From Siphonodentalium dalli (Eukaryota > Mollusca > Scaphopoda > Gadilida > Siphonodentaliidae): DNA of 64,000 nt. Below, piece after piece: positions 6,367 to 62,440 of this stretch. The stretch spans positions 83,550,324-83,614,323 of the forward strand of contig CP136061.1 in the NCBI GenBank assembly GCA_032622095.1, in the 5' to 3' direction. Within the stretch, counting starts at the first letter, position 1. Each line of letters starts with the position of its first letter. Both the position numbers and the translations under genes were made by a program. The notes under the pieces are model-generated. The model was not told where the DNA came from. It searched no databases and was given only the letters and a program-made list of their open reading frames with translations.

Positions 6367-8224
6367 AGGGTGCTATGTCCCATTGGCACGTTTTGTGGGA
6401 AATCGATGTTGAAGATTCATGATCCGATTCTTCAAACTTAAATAGCTGTAATGTTGTTGTATTTGAGTTAAACGGTTACAATATATCACAACGTGATTCC
6501 ATGTGAATATTAATACCGAAAACCAAAGAGTTTTCGTGAAAAACGTGAAAACGTGTTTGGAGATAGAACTTTTATGCACAAAACTGCCACTTTGTCTCCG
6601 GGCTAAAAAGCACTCGGAGATAGAACATTATGGCTCGCCGGAACCTCATATTTTGGTGCGGACTAAAGGGTTCAATAACGGTACTGGTAATTGGTCAGTA
6701 CTGCGGGTTCGTTTTCTTGCATTTGCTTACGATTAACTTAGGTTCGTTACAAGGTATGTTGTAGCGTGTCTGTTACACACATATTATATATTGTTGATTT
6801 CTAGGAAGATGAGGGAAAAAGAATTTCTCCGTTGTATTCGAATGATATTTTAATTCAAGCTAATGACACCCATGAATCCAAAATACACACAGAACACAGT
6901 CTAATATTCTGAACACATCAGGTCAGTGTTAATCGCACGATATTTATCAAACGAGGATTTTATAGTCGAAAACTTAACAACAGGCAAAAATTCTTAAAGC
7001 TTTTAAAATGTCGGTAAAATGACGATCGGCAATCCGTACAGATTCCGCCACAAAAATATAGATAAACCAATCATTTGACAAAATCGTTTTCTCTGCACAG
7101 TGGTGTGACATGGTCTCAAATCGCGCCCTCGGTCGGATATGAAAACCTCGCACGCGACGTGGGACCCTATCATCCTCACTGGGCTGAGACAACTTAAATA
7201 TGATGGACACAGACAAAATACTTGATTTCCATAGAAAGTAATTTTTGGCAATGTGTGCAAAATGGTGCATGATCTCCGGGACACGATGCCTTTACAGCCT
7301 CTCACAATGGACGTGTGCTTGTGTGGTTAATAAATATCTTATATTATAAGGTATTCCTTCTCACGCAGGGAAATTGTTGAATCGAATAATACAATAACGA
7401 TCGTTACAACAGAACGTTTTCTTTTAAATCAAACAATATTGTGTTTCATACAATTTAACTTAAATGTTACATGCAGTCAACTCGAACCTTGACAAAGTTA
7501 ACTCGTTGTACCCTGCTCTAATTCCACACAATCATTCAATAAGCTTGGGAACAAGATTATTTTATTTGAACTCGGTAACGACCAAACGGCATGTATGATC
7601 AGGCACATATACACAACGTCATAATACTATTTAATTTCCTTTTTAAAAACGAGGCCGATATAACACCCATTTCAATTGGTAATATGTTGTCAAGGTACGA
7701 GAGCAGCTGCTCACGCCTCGTTTGGGTGAGACCATGCAACGAAAAATCTCATAAAGCAAACTTCAGCAAATTATGCGTGTCAGAAACAGACACAAATTAA
7801 AACACCCTGACTTGGTTTTAAAGTTACACATTTAAAACATGGCAAAAACTGACATAGACATAAAGGGACACAAGGACTTTAACGTTGGCATATATTGGCT
7901 ATGATTAAAATATATACCCATTGAAGACATTATTGAAAACTTAAATTCTGAGACACATCTGCGTTAATATCTTAATGAAAAAGTGTCCTGTTTGGAAGAA
8001 CTCAACAAATGAGAGTAAATGCGATGACTTCTTGACTTCAATGAACAATTTACATGATATTCGGCAAATAATATTTTCTTAACAATCCCGAACTAACACC
8101 ACATCACAATAATAATAATAATAATATTTTAAACTTAAAGTCACAATGGCTCTCAGGTGTGTAAACTATCGGCATAGATTTTAATCACTTGCAACAACTC
8201 AGTTTTCAGATCTTTCTACACTCT
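6367..8224. other. No gene recognised; recurring GGAGATAGAAC motif and an AAT microsatellite
   Basis: All frames are short and lack splice-site support. GGAGATAGAAC occurs at 6559-6569 and 6616-6626 and recurs at 9962-10325. (AAT)n lies at 8107-8126. I see no TIR-bounded element in 6640-8200. Confidence 0.4.
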
Positions 8225-11765: not shown

Positions 11766-13071
11766 AATAAGGTTATTCTATCGCGTGAAAATGTAGTTTT
11801 GTGAGAGTGATTTCACCCTTAGCCAGATCACAAATAAAAGGCCGTACATTACAATTAAATATTTTGCTAAACAGTCTATTATATCGCGTAAAATGTGGAG
11901 TTTTCACCCTTTGCCAATTCACATATAAATTCATTGTACAATATATCCATTATGTAATCCCGTTTTGAAGTTTTAATCGCGTAAAATTGTGATCATGGAA
12001 GGGTGATATCACCCTTTGCCATTTCACATATAAATTCATTGTACAATATATCCGTGATGTAATCCCGTTTTGAAGTTAGAATCGCATAAAATAGTGATCA
12101 TGGAAGGGTGATATCACCCTTTGCCATGTAACATATCAATTCATTGTACAATATATCCATTATGTAATCCCGTTTTGAAGTTTCAATCGCGTAAAATTGT
12201 GATCATGGAAGGGTGATATCACCCTTTGCCATTTCACATATAAATTCATTGTACAATATATCGATGATGTAATCCCGTTTTGAAATTATAATCGCGTAAA
12301 ACTGTGATCATGGAAGGGTGATATCACCCTTTGCCATTTCACATATAGTTATACATTCATTGTTCAATATATGCATGATGTAATCCCGTTTTGAAGTTTT
12401 AATCGGTAAAATTGTGATCATGGAAGGGTGATATCACCCTTTGCCATTTCACATATAAATTTATTGTACAATATATCCATGATGTAATCCCGTTTGACGT
12501 TTTAATCGCGTAAAATTGTGATCATGGAAGGGTGATATCAACCTTTGCCATTTCACATATAAATTCATTGTACAATATATCCATGATGTAATCCCGTTTT
12601 GAAGTTATAATCGGTAAAATTGTGATCATGGAAGGGTGATATCACCCTTTGCCATTTCACATATAAATTCATTGTTCAATATATCCATTATGGAATCGCG
12701 TTTTGAAGTTTTAATCGCGTACAATTGTGATCATGGAGGGTGATATCACCCTTTGCCATATCACATAATAAGTCCATTGTACAGTAAGTCCATGATGTAA
12801 TCCCGTTTTGAAGTTTGAATCGCGTAAAATTGCAATTGTGGCCATGGAAGGGTGACATCATCCTTTGCCAGTATCACATATATATTTACTTTACAATATA
12901 TCCATGATGTAATCCCGTCTTGAAGTTAGAATCGCGTAAAATTGTGATCATGGAAGGGTGATATCACCCTTTGCCATATCACATATAACTCCATTGTACA
13001 GTAAGTCCATGATGTAATCCCGTTTTGAAGTTTGAATCGAGTAAACTTGTGGTGATGGAAGGGTGATATCC
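11766..13071 (+). repeat. 105-bp-period satellite array with a conserved 18-bp palindrome
   Basis: About 12 units. The start of GGGTGATATC recurs at 12001, 12106, 12211, 12316, 12426, 12530, 12634, 12738, 12850, 12956 and 13061, giving periods of 105, 105, 105, 110, 104, 104, 104, 112, 106 and 105. Two more degenerate units lie to the left, from about 11766. Each unit carries AAGGGTGATATCACCCTT (a perfect palindrome), TTTGCCATTTCACATATAAA, ATTGTACAATATATCCATGA, TGTAATCCCGTTTTGAAGTT and AATCGCGTAAAATTGTGATC. The array ends abruptly at the middle of the palindrome (GGGTGATATC at 13061-13070), where retroelement sequence begins. Confidence 0.95.
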
Positions 13072-14698: not shown

Positions 14699-16225
14699 TC
14701 AATCATACACCTTTGCTTGTTTGTTCTGTGCTTTCGGTGGAGTTGACAGGTTCCTTTTTCGGCTACCCTTAGCACCAGATGCCGATGCCTGAATGAACGA
14801 CTCAGTTAGTTTCTCCCTTCCGACTGGACTGAGATGAATGCCTCGCTTGTCCTTCTCATTGAATAGTTCTTTTCGCACTCCGTCGACGCCCGAGAACGTA
14901 TTGTATGTGTCAACGAATTCATACTTCTCCTTTTTGGAGCACAGCTTTTCCATAAAGTCATTCATGACTATGGCTGCAAAATTATGGTCCTGAGCTACCA
15001 AGCTATTTCCTCTTCTTGGTGGATTGGTGGAACACTACACATGCTCAGATTGGCATTGGGGAACACAGTTGCGATCTCAACAAGCGCCTCAGTCATGTTG
15101 AGTATAGCTGAGCTGGCACTTAAGTTATTTTTGGTGAGGTCATTGGTGCCAAGATGCACTATCACTGAACTCACACTTTCGGGCGATTTCCGACTATTTC
15201 ATCCTTCATAGCATTATCCAGCAGGTTTGATATATCTGCGTATGTTGCTCCACTAACCGAAAAGTTTTTGATGTTTGGCTTATTTACATTGAGTCCGACA
15301 CAGTTACTCGCACCCAGGATCACAGTGTTAACAGCTGGGCTTATGTCTTCAGCAGAGTCCGCATTAAGGTTAATCCAGTCCTCGAGGTTGTCGTGTGTAC
15401 CCCGTCGGTCATGACTATCGCTCACCTTGTCACGTTGATTGCCTTGTTGTGTCGGCTGTGGATCGCCGGCAGGCGGTCTTTGTTGTCTGTCCCGCTGACC
15501 TAGTCGCTCGGTGGCCTTGTTGTGTCTGCTGCGGGTCACCGGTAGGTGGTCTCTGATATCTGTCCCGCTGATCTAGTCGCTCGGGGCCTTGTTGTGTCTG
15601 CTGCGGATCACCGGTAGGTGGTATCTGTTGTCTGTCCCACTGACCTAGTCGCGCAGGGCAGTCTGCCATCACGTGACCAAAAATCAGACATCCTCGACAG
15701 TTGACGTCATAAGTACATTCTCGCCTGGTTTGAGTATCACTCAGACACTTCGTACATTTACGTTTGGCTTCGCATTGGTAATTATGGAGGTGTTGATCAC
15801 TACATGCTTGGCATGATTGCTTGGTGACGTCAGAATACACAGGAATGTTAATTTCACCAATGTTTATTGTACTAGGAATTTCCTTGCATTTGATCATTTG
15901 CACATAACGGGTACCATTTTCGACATTCCAATCTTTCACAAAGCCCCTTTTGAAGGTTCCATCCACTAATGTTCCATGTGCTGACAGTGCCGATATAATT
16001 TCAGAGTCATCCATAAAGATGGGCGCATCTTTCAGGGTGACATGAATGGCTTTGGTGTCGATATCTGCCGGACGCACAAATCTTCGATATTAGTATATCC
16101 CATTGTTTATTAGGTCGCTTTTAGCTGTTATGTCAGATAGGGTGATAAAGCACTCAGGTTCAGTTATTTGTACTGGTCGATTCGGTGTGTCCCGGTCCCT
16201 CCCCAGTGTCCAGTCAAAAACTGAT
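14699..16225 (-). pseudogene. Non-LTR retrotransposon ORF1 with zinc-knuckle-like and SGNH-hydrolase-like regions, broken
   Basis: Minus-strand ORF1 relic. In order: an N-terminal part (VQITEPECFITLSDITAKSD) with a TAA at 16090-16092; an RNA-binding-like part (KAIHVTLKDAPIFMDDSEII..); a Cys-rich part with CQACSDQH, CTKC and CRGCLIFGHVMADC (zinc-knuckle-like); three tandem 24-codon repeats built on PPTGDPQQTQQG; and an esterase-like part with LGASN (nucleophile block, Asp replaced by Ala), HLGTND (GxND block) and GIHLSPVG (His block, usual Asp replaced). Breaks: one stop, a +1 shift between the second and third 24-codon repeats (about 15520), and shifts near 15172 and 15020. C-terminal SGNH/esterase domains are known from CR1-like ORF1 proteins, so this assignment is a family inference. 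It is clearly non-functional as read. Confidence 0.8.
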
Positions 16226-19786: not shown

Positions 19787-20320
19787 ATCTTAGCGGATTA
19801 TGGACATGTTGCTCATCAGGCTTTGCCCGACAAAATGATAAAAAAAACGCGTACTTAAAAGATATTCCTTGTTTACCTCGAATATGAGTTTCAACAAGAA
19901 GACTATCAGGCTACTGCTATCGTTGACTGATTTCCGTCACAATGGTATGTGAGAACCCCGGTATGTATTGTCATATGTTGGATCAAGTGACGGTTGCGTG
20001 ATGATTACCACCCAAATCACACGATGTTAGATGAGAACCCCGGCATGTACATGTATTGTCATATGTTGGATCAAGTAACCGCAGCTTGATGATTTACCAT
20101 ACAAGTCACACAATGGTATGTGAGAGAGAATCCCGGTATGTATTGTCATATGTTGAATCAAGTGATCGCTGCGGGAGAATGATTTACCTCACAAATCACA
20201 CAATTTTATGTGAGAACCCCGACATATGCATGATTTACCTCACAAATCACTGTGCCAGGCTTATCCCTGGTGGGGATTATCTTATGGGTCACCAAGATGT
20301 TCGATTAAATGATTTACCAC
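19787..20320 (-). pseudogene. Relic zinc fingers and 3' flank, downstream of the broken finger gene
   Basis: Minus-strand sequence beyond the finger gene's stop keeps finger-like readouts in shifted frames: SGKSFNQSN, later GKSFSRSDHLIQHM with TIHTG. The 84-nt periodicity persists (GTATTGTCATATGTTG recurs near 19967, 20055 and 20145). Thus the array was once longer. The outer part (19787-19930) matches 22985-23205, the 3' flank of the second tandem block. Confidence 0.65.
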
Positions 20321-22870
<2,550 letters not shown>

Positions 22871-26994: not shown

Positions 26995-28155
26995 TCAAAT
27001 ATCTGGGTCAGGCTTATTTCCGGTGTGGATCCTCTTATTGTGTGTCAACAAGATGTTCGATTGATTAAATGATTTGCCGCAGATGTCACAATGGTAAGGC
27101 TTATCTCCGGTATGGATTCTCTTATGTCTCACCAAGTCGCTCGACTGATTAAAAGATTTACTGCAGATGTCACAACGGTAAGGCTTATCTCCTGTATGTA
27201 TTCTCTTATGTCTCACAAGGTGACTCGAATGATTAAATGATTTCCCGCATAAATCACAACGGTAGGGCTTATCTCCGGTGTGGATTCTCTTATGTCTCAC
27301 CAGGTGACTCGAATGATTAAATGATTTCCCGCATATATCACAACGGTAAGGCTTATCTCCAGTATGGATTCTCTTATGTTGCACCAAGCTGCTCGATTGA
27401 TTAAATGATTTCCCGCATATATCACAATTGTAAGGCTTATCTCCGGTGTGGATTCTCTTATGTATCACAAATCTGCTCCATTGATTAAATGATTCCCCGC
27501 ATATATCACAATTGTAAGGCTTATCTCCGGTGTGGATTCTCTTATGTGTCACCAATCTCCTCGATTGATTAAATGATTTCCCGCATAAATCACAACGGTA
27601 CAGCTTATCTCCGGAATGGATTCTCTTATGTTGCACCAAGTTGCTCGATTGATTAAATGATTTCCCGCATATATCACAATTGTAAGGCTTATCTCCGGTG
27701 TGGATTCGCTTATGTGTCACCAAGCTCCCCGATTGATTAAATGATTTCCCGCATATATCACAATGGTAGGGCTTATCTCCAGTATGTATTCTCTTATGTC
27801 TCACCAGGTGACTCGAATGATTAAATGGTTTCCCGCATAAATCACAATTGTAAGGCATATCTCCGGTGTGGATTCTCTTATGTATCACCAAGTGGCTCGA
27901 TCGACTAAATGATTTCCCGCATAAATCACAATTGTAAGGCACATCTCCGGTGTGGATTCTCTTATGTATCACCAAGTCGCTCGATCGACTAAATGATTTC
28001 CCGCATAGATCACAACGGTAAGGCTTATCTCCAGTGTGGATTCTCATGTGTGTCACCAAGCCGCTCGATCGAGTGAACGATTTCTCGCATACGTCACAAT
28101 GATGTATATTGCCTATGTTGGTGGTCTCGTGGACATTCAGGTTAGCATCCCCCAT
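26995..28155 (-). CDS. C2H2 zinc-finger protein with 13 tandem fingers, intact
   Basis: 386-residue single-exon protein, presumably nuclear and DNA-binding. It starts ATG at 28153-28155 (context [28 protein letters not shown]). Thirteen 28-residue fingers occupy residues about 19 to 382 with pattern CDxCxKxFxxSSxLVxHxRIH. Helix positions -1,2,3,6 vary (RSSD, RSSH, HSSH, QSGS, QSSN, QSRR, QSSS, QSSD), while fingers 4, 10 and 11 share HSSHLVR. Linkers are almost all HTGDKPY, not the usual TGEKPY. Finger 6 ends HSGDKL and finger 13 has H-x4-H. No KRAB, SCAN, BTB or ZAD domain is visible in the short leader. The gene lies in a tandemly duplicated block with a broken paralogue at 20321-21323. Its C-terminus reflects a frameshift that cut off at least two further fingers. 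Confidence 0.93.
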   Translation of the reverse strand: MGDANLNVHETTNIGNIHHCDVCEKSFTRSSGLVTHMRIHTGDKPYRCDLCGKSFSRSSDLVIHKRIHTGDVPYNCDLCGKSFSRSSHLVIHKRIHTGDMPYNCDLCGKPFNHSSHLVRHKRIHTGDKPYHCDICGKSFNQSGSLVTHKRIHTGDKPYNCDICGKSFNQSSNLVQHKRIHSGDKLYRCDLCGKSFNQSRRLVTHKRIHTGDKPYNCDICGESFNQWSRFVIHKRIHTGDKPYNCDICGKSFNQSSSLVQHKRIHTGDKPYRCDICGKSFNHSSHLVRHKRIHTGDKPYRCDLCGKSFNHSSHLVRHKRIHTGDKPYRCDICSKSFNQSSDLVRHKRIHTGDKPYHCDICGKSFNQSNILLTHNKRIHTGNKPDPDI

Positions 28156-45889: not shown

Positions 45890-47105
45890 GGACAGTTTTG
45901 ACGTCACACAAGAGAATTCACACCAGCGATCGCCCTTATGAATGTGATCTTTGCCAACAAATATTTACTACGTCCAGTTTGTTGACGTGTACATAAGAAG
46001 ATCACACCGGCAAACGGCCATATGAGTGCGACAAATGTCGGAAAACATTCAAGCATTCGAATCAGCTAGTTTAACGAGTCATAAAAGAACCCACTCCGGT
46101 GATCCCCCCATATCAATGTCATATATGTAACAAATCCTTCTCAGAATGGTCTACAGTGGATGACCTGACGGAACATAAAAGATTCCACTCTAGGGATCGC
46201 CCATATCTGTGTGATATTTGTGAAAAATCATTCATCGATTCGGGAAATTCGACTGACACAAAAGGATACTCTTCGATGATTGACCATATCAATGCGCTAT
46301 ATGCGAGAAGGCCTTCAAACACGCAGGCAACCTGATGAAATACAAGATTATTCATTCCGATGTCCAGCTGTACACATGTGATATATGCGAGAAAAGTTTC
46401 AGTCGGTCATATAATTTGGCTGCACACAACAGAATCCACTCTGGTGATCGCCCATATCAACTGTGATATCTGTCAGCAATCATTCATTACAGCGGGTTGG
46501 CCTGACAAAACATAACAGAATCCACTCCAGTTACGCCCCACATCAATGTGAATTTTGTGGGAAAGTATTCATTATCGCAGGCGACCTAACGAAACATTCA
46601 CTGCAGTGAGTCACCTGACAAAACATAAAAAAATCCACTCCGATCTACGCCCATTTCAATGTGATATTTGTGAAAAATCATTCAACGATTTGGGGAAATT
46701 TGACTGCACACAGGATGATACACACTGGAGATCTACATTATCTGTGCGATATATGCGGGAAAGCATTTAATCATTCAAGTGATCTAATAATTCATAAAAG
46801 AATTCACTCCTGTGACCGCCCATATCAATGTGACATCTGTAACAAAGCATTTACTGCAGTGAGTGACCTGACGAAACACAAAAGAGTGCATTCTGGCGAG
46901 CGCCCGTATCAATGTGATATTTGTGGGAAGTCATTCGCCTTGTTGGGAAATTTGTCTCAACACAAGAGGATACACACGGAAGATCGACCATATGAGTACG
47001 GTATATGCGGGGAAAGCATTTAATCATTCAAGTAATTTAACAATTCATAAACGAATCCACTCCGGCGATTGACCGTAGCAATGTGATGTTTGTAGGAAGT
47101 CATAA
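45890..47105 (+). pseudogene. Decayed C2H2 zinc-finger array, second subfamily
   Basis: About a dozen finger units on the plus strand at 84-nt spacing, with stops and frameshifts throughout. Readable pieces: [30 protein letters not shown] (46105), RPYLCDICEKSFIDSG, CDICEKSFSRSYNLAAHNRI, and three consecutive intact fingers at 46737-46974 ([60 protein letters not shown]). Linkers are HS(G/C)(D/E)RPY, unlike the TGDKPY of the 21-28 kb copies, so this is a separate lineage. Later units contain stops (GDWP with TGA, about 47067). No intact N-terminus. Confidence 0.9.
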
Positions 47106-57920: not shown

Positions 57921-58327
57921 TTAACCCTTTACCCAACAGAACGGCCCTGTGCCAATGCATTCTCTTATATATGCGAGTCGACCATAGGTCGCCTCGCATA
58001 TATGAGAGAATACACTGGCTTAACACATATTAAAGATGATAAAATTGTCAAAGAATGTAGAAAAATATTATAAAAATGTAAGAAAAATTATAAAATTGTT
58101 AAAGAATGTGAGAAAAAATGGTATATATGCGAGGCGACCTATGGTCGACTCGCATATATAAGATAATGCATTGGCACAAGGCATCACTGTAACCTCCACA
58201 ATGTGGTCAATAAACCGGTTCCAATGATATCCATATTTATATGGTGTTATTGAGACAGACCGAATATATTTTAGGCTGTTGAAGCTTTATTTGGGCGTTT
58301 TTGGCCGTTTTGTTGGGTAAAGGGTCC
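57921..58327 (+). mobile_element. Family I piggyBac-like MITE, copy 1, with two internal palindromes
   Basis: TTAA (57921) then CCCTTTACCCAACA at the left; TGTTGGGTAAAGGG at the right with a degraded flank. Internal palindromes at 57951-58019 (69 bp, GCCAATGCATTCTC..GGC) and 58120-58175 (one arm decayed), in opposite orientation around an AT-rich spacer. Right interior: GACAGACCGAATATATTTTA, GGCTGTTGAAGCTTTATTTG. TTAA plus a CCC-starting terminus is the standard piggyBac signature. Confidence 0.85.
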
Positions 58328-58399
58328 TAGAGTCATCACAAGTTATATGTGACCCGCCATATCAAATCCAGTCGTAAGTCGGGATTTGTTTTACCCTGT

Positions 58400-58468
58400 G
58401 CCGATGCATTCTCTTATATATGCAAGTCGACCATAGGTCGCCTCGCATATATAAGAGAATGCATTGGC
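58400..58468. repeat. Solo 69-bp palindrome of family I type
   Basis: GCCGATGCATTCTCTTATAT.. to ..ATATAAGAGAATGCATTGGC, with centre AAGTCGACCATAGGTCGCCT. It lies 73 bp outside copy 1 and has no TIR of its own. Confidence 0.88.
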
Positions 58469-59054
58469 CTAACAATTGTTTATCATTTTTTTTAAATAAA
58501 TGTTTCTGACAATTTTTAGGACATAAAATAAAAAACATCCATTACCCTGCAGGGAACCCCGCACATATATAGAAGAATATAGAAGAGTGTCGTCTGCTCA
58601 TGTTTGTTTGGGGCTCTGTATGGGTGAAATTATAAAGCGTCACATAATTAACCTGAGCACAAATATGATCTAAGCAAAATACTAAATAAAATATTTTAGC
58701 ACCCGACAATTTAAAATTGCGGGTGCGGACGGGTGCGAGAGCAATTGCATTGTGAATTGCATGATGTTAACTAACTCCAGTGAGGACATCAATTAATCCG
58801 CCCTGATGTGAGTGCCAGCAGCGACAAGCTGCAGCAGGACAAAGCCAAATGAGAAAGCTCATGTTTGTTTTGTTTTTTTATTTGGGGATGGGGTATATGT
58901 TTACACCAATGGTTGTTATACTGCTCACATGCGGAGAACCATGCATATATTTCGAAAACTAGTCCTTAGTGGCAAGGAACTCACATTTGTGTCTTTATTT
59001 TAAATATCTTGTACATGATCATACTGACGACCTCTCCGCTTAAATAGAGGTATA
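58469..59054. other. No gene recognised
   Basis: Noncoding. A small inverted pair around GCACCCG / CGGGTGC is seen at 58700-58733. The open frame at 58812-59003 lacks support. Confidence 0.4.
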
Positions 59055-62043: not shown

Positions 62044-62440
62044 TTAACCCTTTACCCAACAAACCGGCCAAAACCGGCCAAATAAAGCTTCAACAGCCTA
62101 AAATATATTCGGTCTGTCTCAATAGAACCATACAAATATGGATATCATTGGAACCGGCTCCTTGACCGCATTGTGATAGTTACAGTTAGCCCTGTGCCAA
62201 TGCATTCTCTTATATATGCGAGTTGACCATAGGTCGCCTCGCATATATAAGAGAATGCATTGGCCTAAAAACAAATTTTTTAACACTTTTTACCATTTTT
62301 TCTTACATTCTTTAACAATTTTATAATTTTTAATGTGTTAAGCCAATGCATTCTCTTATATATGCGAGGCGACCTATGGTCGACTCGCATATATAAGAGA
62401 ATGCATTGGCACAAGGCCCTTCTGTTGGGTAAAGGGTTAA
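62044..62440 (-). mobile_element. Family I piggyBac-like MITE, copy 2, intact, with two 69-bp palindromes
   Basis: TTAA at 62044-62047 and 62437-62440. Termini CCCTTTACCCAACA / TGTTGGGTAAAGGG. Inverted relative to copy 1. Subterminal CCGGCCAAAACCGGCCAAAT; near-perfect palindromes at 62196-62264 and 62342-62410, in opposite orientation around an AT-rich spacer with ATTCTTTAACAATTTTATAA. No transposase; presumably mobilised in trans. Confidence 0.92.

Follow-up and report, generated by a model that had tools for sequence, protein, structure and literature searches.

Facing palindromes in a young TTAA-flanked MITE family of Siphonodentalium dalli are shared with MITE families that have different ends

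The DNA analyzed here, referred to as the window, is a 64,000-nucleotide stretch of the Siphonodentalium dalli genome, and positions 62044-62440 hold a short element whose structure could be read directly. The element body spans 389 bp (62048-62436), which is too short to encode a transposase, and lies between two TTAA copies, the left (62044-62047) and right (62437-62440) target duplications. It begins with a 14-bp terminal inverted repeat, CCCTTTACCCAACA, on the forward strand (62048-62061; direct reading and a mismatch-tolerant count) and ends with the complement of this repeat on the reverse strand (62423-62436); over 26 nt, counting the TTAA, the two ends are 88% complementary. With up to two mismatches allowed, the 14-mer terminus was found four times in the window, where 0.41 hits would be expected by chance; no shuffle out of 100 gave as many. 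The left repeat is followed on the forward strand by a left arm (62062-62188, delimited by match extents and by eye), by palindrome 1 with its flanks (62189-62268, with its core at 62196-62264 and the T of its mismatch in the outer arm) and by an A+T-rich spacer, read directly (62269-62337), after which palindrome 2 with its flanks (62338-62417, core 62342-62410) lies on the reverse strand and faces palindrome 1. Both are 69-bp near-palindromes with 3-nt loops (94% for the first, which has 33-nt arms, and 97% for the second), and they are inverse copies of each other within an 80-nt inverted repeat (62189-62268 and 62338-62417, 96%). Direct reading therefore confirmed what a first-pass annotation of this DNA had described, namely an element between TTAA copies that has 14-bp termini and contains two near-palindromes of 69 bp in mirrored orientation.

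The same annotation had reported a second copy with the same layout, which holds only in part. The copy at 57921-58325 (reverse strand) is an older, diverged member of the same family, here called family A; it is inverted and about 85% identical to the element at 62044-62440, its far end reads GGGTCCTAG with the TTAA lost, and one of its palindromes is truncated, matching over 54 of 69 bases. It differs by 12.47% substitutions from a consensus built on 29 full copies, more than any other of these copies. A third palindrome in the window (58400-58468), absent from the first-pass annotation, lies inside a fragment of a different family, family C (58348-58636, forward strand, right edge placed by eye), which starts with a TGTGACCCGCC end preceded by TA at 58346-58347. 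At window 58041-58099, and at 7710-8060 of the fetched locus L022, the spacer next to the palindromes grows into an A+T-rich, AAAATTGTTAAAGAATGTAAGAA-like tandem repeat. Elsewhere in the window, a C2H2 zinc-finger open reading frame was found at 26995-28155 (reverse strand), and the reading-frame or repeat arrays at 20230-21271 and 46587-47063 also resemble zinc-finger units. A minisatellite of 11 copies of 105-bp units with 88% matches occupies 11904-13070, and a 215-aa open reading frame at 15430-16077 (reverse strand) combines a cysteine/histidine knuckle-like spacing with a 72-bp repeat and is possibly gag-like.

Family A is a large, young MITE family. The exact 18-mer TTAACCCTTTACCCAACA, consisting of TTAA and the terminus, occurs 91,612 times (45,784 forward and 45,828 reverse) in the nine long contigs counted, which represent 2.23 Gb, while its reversed control was found on neither strand (0 and 0); the number of copies in which both ends are perfect is therefore no higher than about 45,800. 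A genome search with the whole element gave 40 full-length matches, 98-100% identical, these being the 40 scored out of 2,357 first-look candidates. When the first 90 of 100 listed A ends were paired, the last 10 being set aside because they represent one strand only, 70 made 35 pairs and 20 were unpaired; 34 of the pairs were spaced 233-470 bp and one 2,406 bp, although this stretch is no fair sample of the genome because it is partly tandem array. On contig C1, at about 735-926 kb, A copies recur regularly at about 14.56 kb and then at about 11.17 kb, representing large A-carrying tandem arrays. The 29 full copies differ from their consensus by 0.00-12.47% substitutions, with three at 0.00%; the 20 chosen by similarity range over 0.00-1.00%, the window copy stands at 1.26% and the 8 neighbors met by chance at 0.51-12.47%. 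In 20 unselected 3-kb stretches (60 kb), no A element was found where about 1.2 were expected from the genome count, and this zero is counted against the explanation that we favor below.

Insertion of family A is precise and occurs at TTAA. TTAA flanks both sides of 27 of the 29 full copies (the exceptions are L023 6531, with TTAG, and window 57921), a figure favored by the choice of most copies by similarity, with a query that included the TTAA. In L016, an A copy is nested in the TTAA of another A copy; with the insert and one TTAA removed, the host reads through and is 97% identical to another A. Moreover, an A copy in L023 is nested in an element of a further family, D, and the rejoined sequence, TTATATTCT-TTAA-CAGACTTATT, is identical over its length to the corresponding part of the uninterrupted D in L011. 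The earlier identification of a MITE with TTAA duplication is thus supported both by the 91,612 exact ends and by insertions into the TTAA of known repeats.

Further analysis showed that the palindrome is not family A's own but is common to other MITE families, which the first-pass annotation had not seen. Family B has the form TTAA-CCCTTTCATGACTGGAGC ... CATCATGAAAGGG-TTAA and measures about 250-430 bp, with TTAA on both sides in 4 of the 7 copies that have both ends in view (by eye); family D starts with TTAA-CCCTTTCAGTGCCAGG, measures about 250-480 bp and carries one palindrome only. The TGTGACCCGCC ends of family C are preceded by TA, and its superfamily is less certain, as it is known from one complete copy (L026) and two left ends (window 58348 and L038). 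The left arm of family A was not seen in the other families when the best stretch of each partial match was considered and the sequences were read by eye, since partial matches elsewhere begin at element base 133 or beyond. With a palindrome profile, 98 copies were detected across a total of 324 kb, made up of the window, 20 selected loci of 10 kb each and the 20 unselected 3-kb stretches; by outer flank these represent 59 A, 23 B (including one, at window 58122-58175, that is A by position), 4 C, 3 D and 9 unassigned; the unselected 60 kb contained four of them, one strong and three weaker. A 21-base stretch of the palindrome had no match in viral contigs.

Genome-wide, the A-type palindrome centre was found 127,660 times and its control 0 times when the pattern accepted T or G at one mismatch base and A or C at the other. 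Among the first 100 centre places, 55 are located inward of an exact A end at a distance of up to 450 bp, 6 more form A-spaced pairs and 39 do neither; with the tandem array at 735-930 kb set aside, 35 of 70 do neither. Some of those 39 centres may be damaged A copies, and a few B copies carry an A-type centre as well (L016 3820 and L022 7635). Palindrome and terminus, searched separately as had been proposed, do co-occur: among 25 A copies whose two ends are exact, two matching centres were seen in 12, one in 5 and none in 8, so that 17 of 25 hold at least one and the arrangement is not a one-off. A one-off was also ruled out by the 40 full-length matches, the 91,612 ends and the 127,660 centres. 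The 8 exact-ended copies that lack a matching centre suggest, in turn, that mobility may not need the palindromes.

Comparison of the palindromes themselves revealed that the arms are mostly complementary. In 72 ungapped palindromes (19 distinct; 21 of 93 were excluded for gaps or missing ends), pair 28-42 is T/C in 71 and C/C in one, and in the larger set this pair, located near the loop, reads T/C in 88, C/C in one and A/C in one of the 90 palindromes that have both letters, 8 more lacking one or both. Within the profile set, pair 30-40 is GC in 69 and TA in 20, and pair 31-39 is AT in 70, CG in 21 and GC in one. Between lineages, both members of the pair differ at 30-40, 31-39 and 5-65, the arms reading for instance GACC/GGTC as opposed to TCCC/GGGA, a covariation that spans two or three lineages and therefore represents few independent events. 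All 100 listed centres read T and C at the mismatch, which is weak evidence alone because a family this young would show few single changes at any base; what lends weight to the fixed mismatch is its retention across families. If the mismatch is read as an arrow, all 32 pairs of neighboring centres less than 400 bp apart among the first 100 listed places face each other, 13 of them being repeats of one tandem array region and 19 lying outside it. The fetched loci also include two B arrays (L013 and L025) that add same-direction palindromes and nested copies (L016) that mix the order.

Taken together, family A is probably a recently active, gene-less TTAA MITE of the piggyBac type that is moved in trans, with palindromes that represent a module shared with at least three differently ended families and kept because it aids spread. 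A transposase made elsewhere in the genome would cut and paste family A, as follows from the TTAA evidence together with established knowledge of MITEs, and this mover would be a piggyBac enzyme. The module may have passed among MITEs when one element inserted into another, or when palindromes recombined, which seems the most likely kind of route. That it has been retained suggests that it plays a part in propagation: hairpins in a pair, or a protein site with two-fold symmetry, could help the carrier to spread, for example as a binding site for the transposase or a host factor, or by bringing the ends together. A bolder version, in which facing 69-bp palindromes with one obligatory mismatch form a portable propagation module that unrelated TTAA and TA families acquired independently, in which selection keeps both arm pairing and direction, and whose carriers make up much of the MITE load of the genome, is doubtful.

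A less likely, though possible, explanation is that the palindromes are passive, representing the functionless inside of an old MITE that was inherited while the ends were swapped by recombination. Selection does not act on MITE copies one by one, the palindrome layout could simply descend with each family, and the palindromes are easily deleted, as was seen in three of four A copies that had been picked for odd length and hence give no rate: in L062 both palindromes have collapsed to one that retains the two outer flanks, L063 has lost half of one and L064 half of each, with both intact in L065. Palindromes are, however, known to be unstable, which makes their survival in young copies notable even though the evidence for breakage comes from this selected handful. 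Both palindromes have been retained in most of the young copies fetched despite that instability, arm pairing survives changes on both sides, and the mismatch and the facing order are retained across families, all of which argues against passive palindromes.

It seems rather unlikely that the pair of palindromes represents a mobile element in its own right (with CCCTGTGCC...GGCACAGGG as ends and probably TA as target) that inserted independently in families A, B, C and D. TA directly precedes the module in 3 of 3 D, all 4 C, 2 unassigned and 1 of 59 A palindromes, but the remaining A flanks and the 12 commonest B flanks lack a TA immediately ahead of CCCTG. The pair in L026 lies between TTTA and TAAA, and a C-like inside occurs with other left flanks in two copies (L025 9664 and L028 9821), although L028 retains GGATTTTTTTA and may therefore be a broken C. 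In addition, family D has one palindrome only, and an empty module site was not found in the DNA examined.

As for the enzyme that could move family A, 128 matches to the piggyBac transposase domain (PF13843), many of them intact, came from 116 of the 649 candidates scored, and there were none in 14 control genomes. Many matches in the 562-aa frame list one TGA stop, as if they represented an amplified dead copy. Ends of families A, B, C and D were not found in the 3' flanks, about 0.3-1.0 kb past the domain, of 12 transposase copies, one taken from each of 12 groups defined by the length of the reading frame and by score; as two of these flanks share a stretch, fewer are independent. A looser end pattern gave an identical GGGTTAG string in L052 and L059, which is not an A, B or D end and was rejected. 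The 2.4-kb A-end pair (C1:6269628-6272033), the only long pair examined, contains no transposase and was rejected as an autonomous A, since it represents an A copy into which about 2 kb of DNA flanked by TTAA has been inserted. This insert (L061, about 303-2297) has TTAAAGGA ends and no open reading frame above 100 aa. The designation "piggyBac-like" in the first-pass annotation is thus consistent with the TTAA, the CCCT ends and the intact PF13843 genes of the genome, while a transposase with these ends was not found in the flanks examined. Kolobok and Sola3 elements likewise duplicate TTAA, and this, together with the 12 flanks without a piggyBac partner, would fit ends that belong to one of these superfamilies. 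Such an assignment is improbable, given that the family A ends fit the CC[C/T]T rule, inverted, with CCCTTTACCCAACA at both ends, and that their CCCTTT start also agrees with coral piggyBac terminal repeats as given in the available text of PMC2872659. For families B and D the same TTAA border was read.

In foldback elements the inverted repeats are the ends, and piggyBac-MITEs of Xenopus have internal tandem repeats. The elements described here are, like both, non-autonomous DNA elements that form hairpins or bear repeats, but unlike foldbacks they have palindromes that are internal and mirrored. The Xenopus elements are cited in the report on the CMITEs of Acropora (Wang et al. 2010, PMC2872659), which are the closest system found in the literature; a search for four exact sequences of the present elements found no paper in the literature library used. 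As far as the accessible part of that report goes, CMITEs measure about 100 bp with a 75-bp inside and reach an estimated 1,600 copies in A. millepora, compared with 250-480 bp (389 bp for the window element) and tens of thousands of copies here. Shared features are the TTAA duplications, CCCTTT-type ends that differ between families, nesting with other elements, and an inside better conserved between families than the ends, as seen here in the palindrome common to A, B and D. The facing 69-bp palindromes with a fixed mismatch set the present families apart, as paired palindromes are not described for CMITEs in that part of the report, and one carrier family, C, differs in having TA at its edge. 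The present elements are therefore most like CMITEs, of which they represent a variant rather than an instance. In piggyBac and piggyBat, according to the accessible text of PMC11707139, paired cysteine-rich transposase domains bind short palindromes near the ends (19 bp in piggyBac and about 14 bp or less in piggyBat); a TTAA transposon with palindromes close to its ends is what the two systems share, but those found here measure 69 bp and are common to several families, and protein binding would be a lead to follow. The origin and role of the conserved MITE inside were left open in the CMITE report, as far as seen in its accessible text. In the present families, the common inside has a defined structure that shows signs of constraint, namely paired changes, a fixed mismatch and a fixed facing order, and with very many young copies at hand its role in transposition is directly testable. 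Annotating repeats by internal similarity would merge families whose ends differ.

Folding of the window element gave -200.2 kcal/mol for the whole (z -21.5) and -53.4 and -55.5 kcal/mol for the single hairpins (z -14.0 and -14.4). The proposal that it folds at three levels stands insofar as the whole element and both hairpins are very stable, but the whole-element fold and the hairpin folds exclude one another because the former pairs the palindromes with each other. A typical animal pre-miRNA is unlike an unbroken 27-bp stem, which is what the hairpins offer, and the microRNA-like role that had been suggested found no support. That transcribed hairpins yield microRNA or siRNA is very improbable: despite the stability of the hairpins, a comparison of the window with Rfam at gathering thresholds found no match, folding is common to any MITE inverted repeat, and a transcript would presumably not need facing pairs just within the element ends. 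Two decayed B-family hairpins are less stable, at -22.6 and -38.4 kcal/mol. Another repeat (CAGTAATGCCCTAA..TAATCGACTCC) lies in or beside family B elements in L011 (4120-4350) and L023 (8940-8990), and in L011 it includes a long hairpin.
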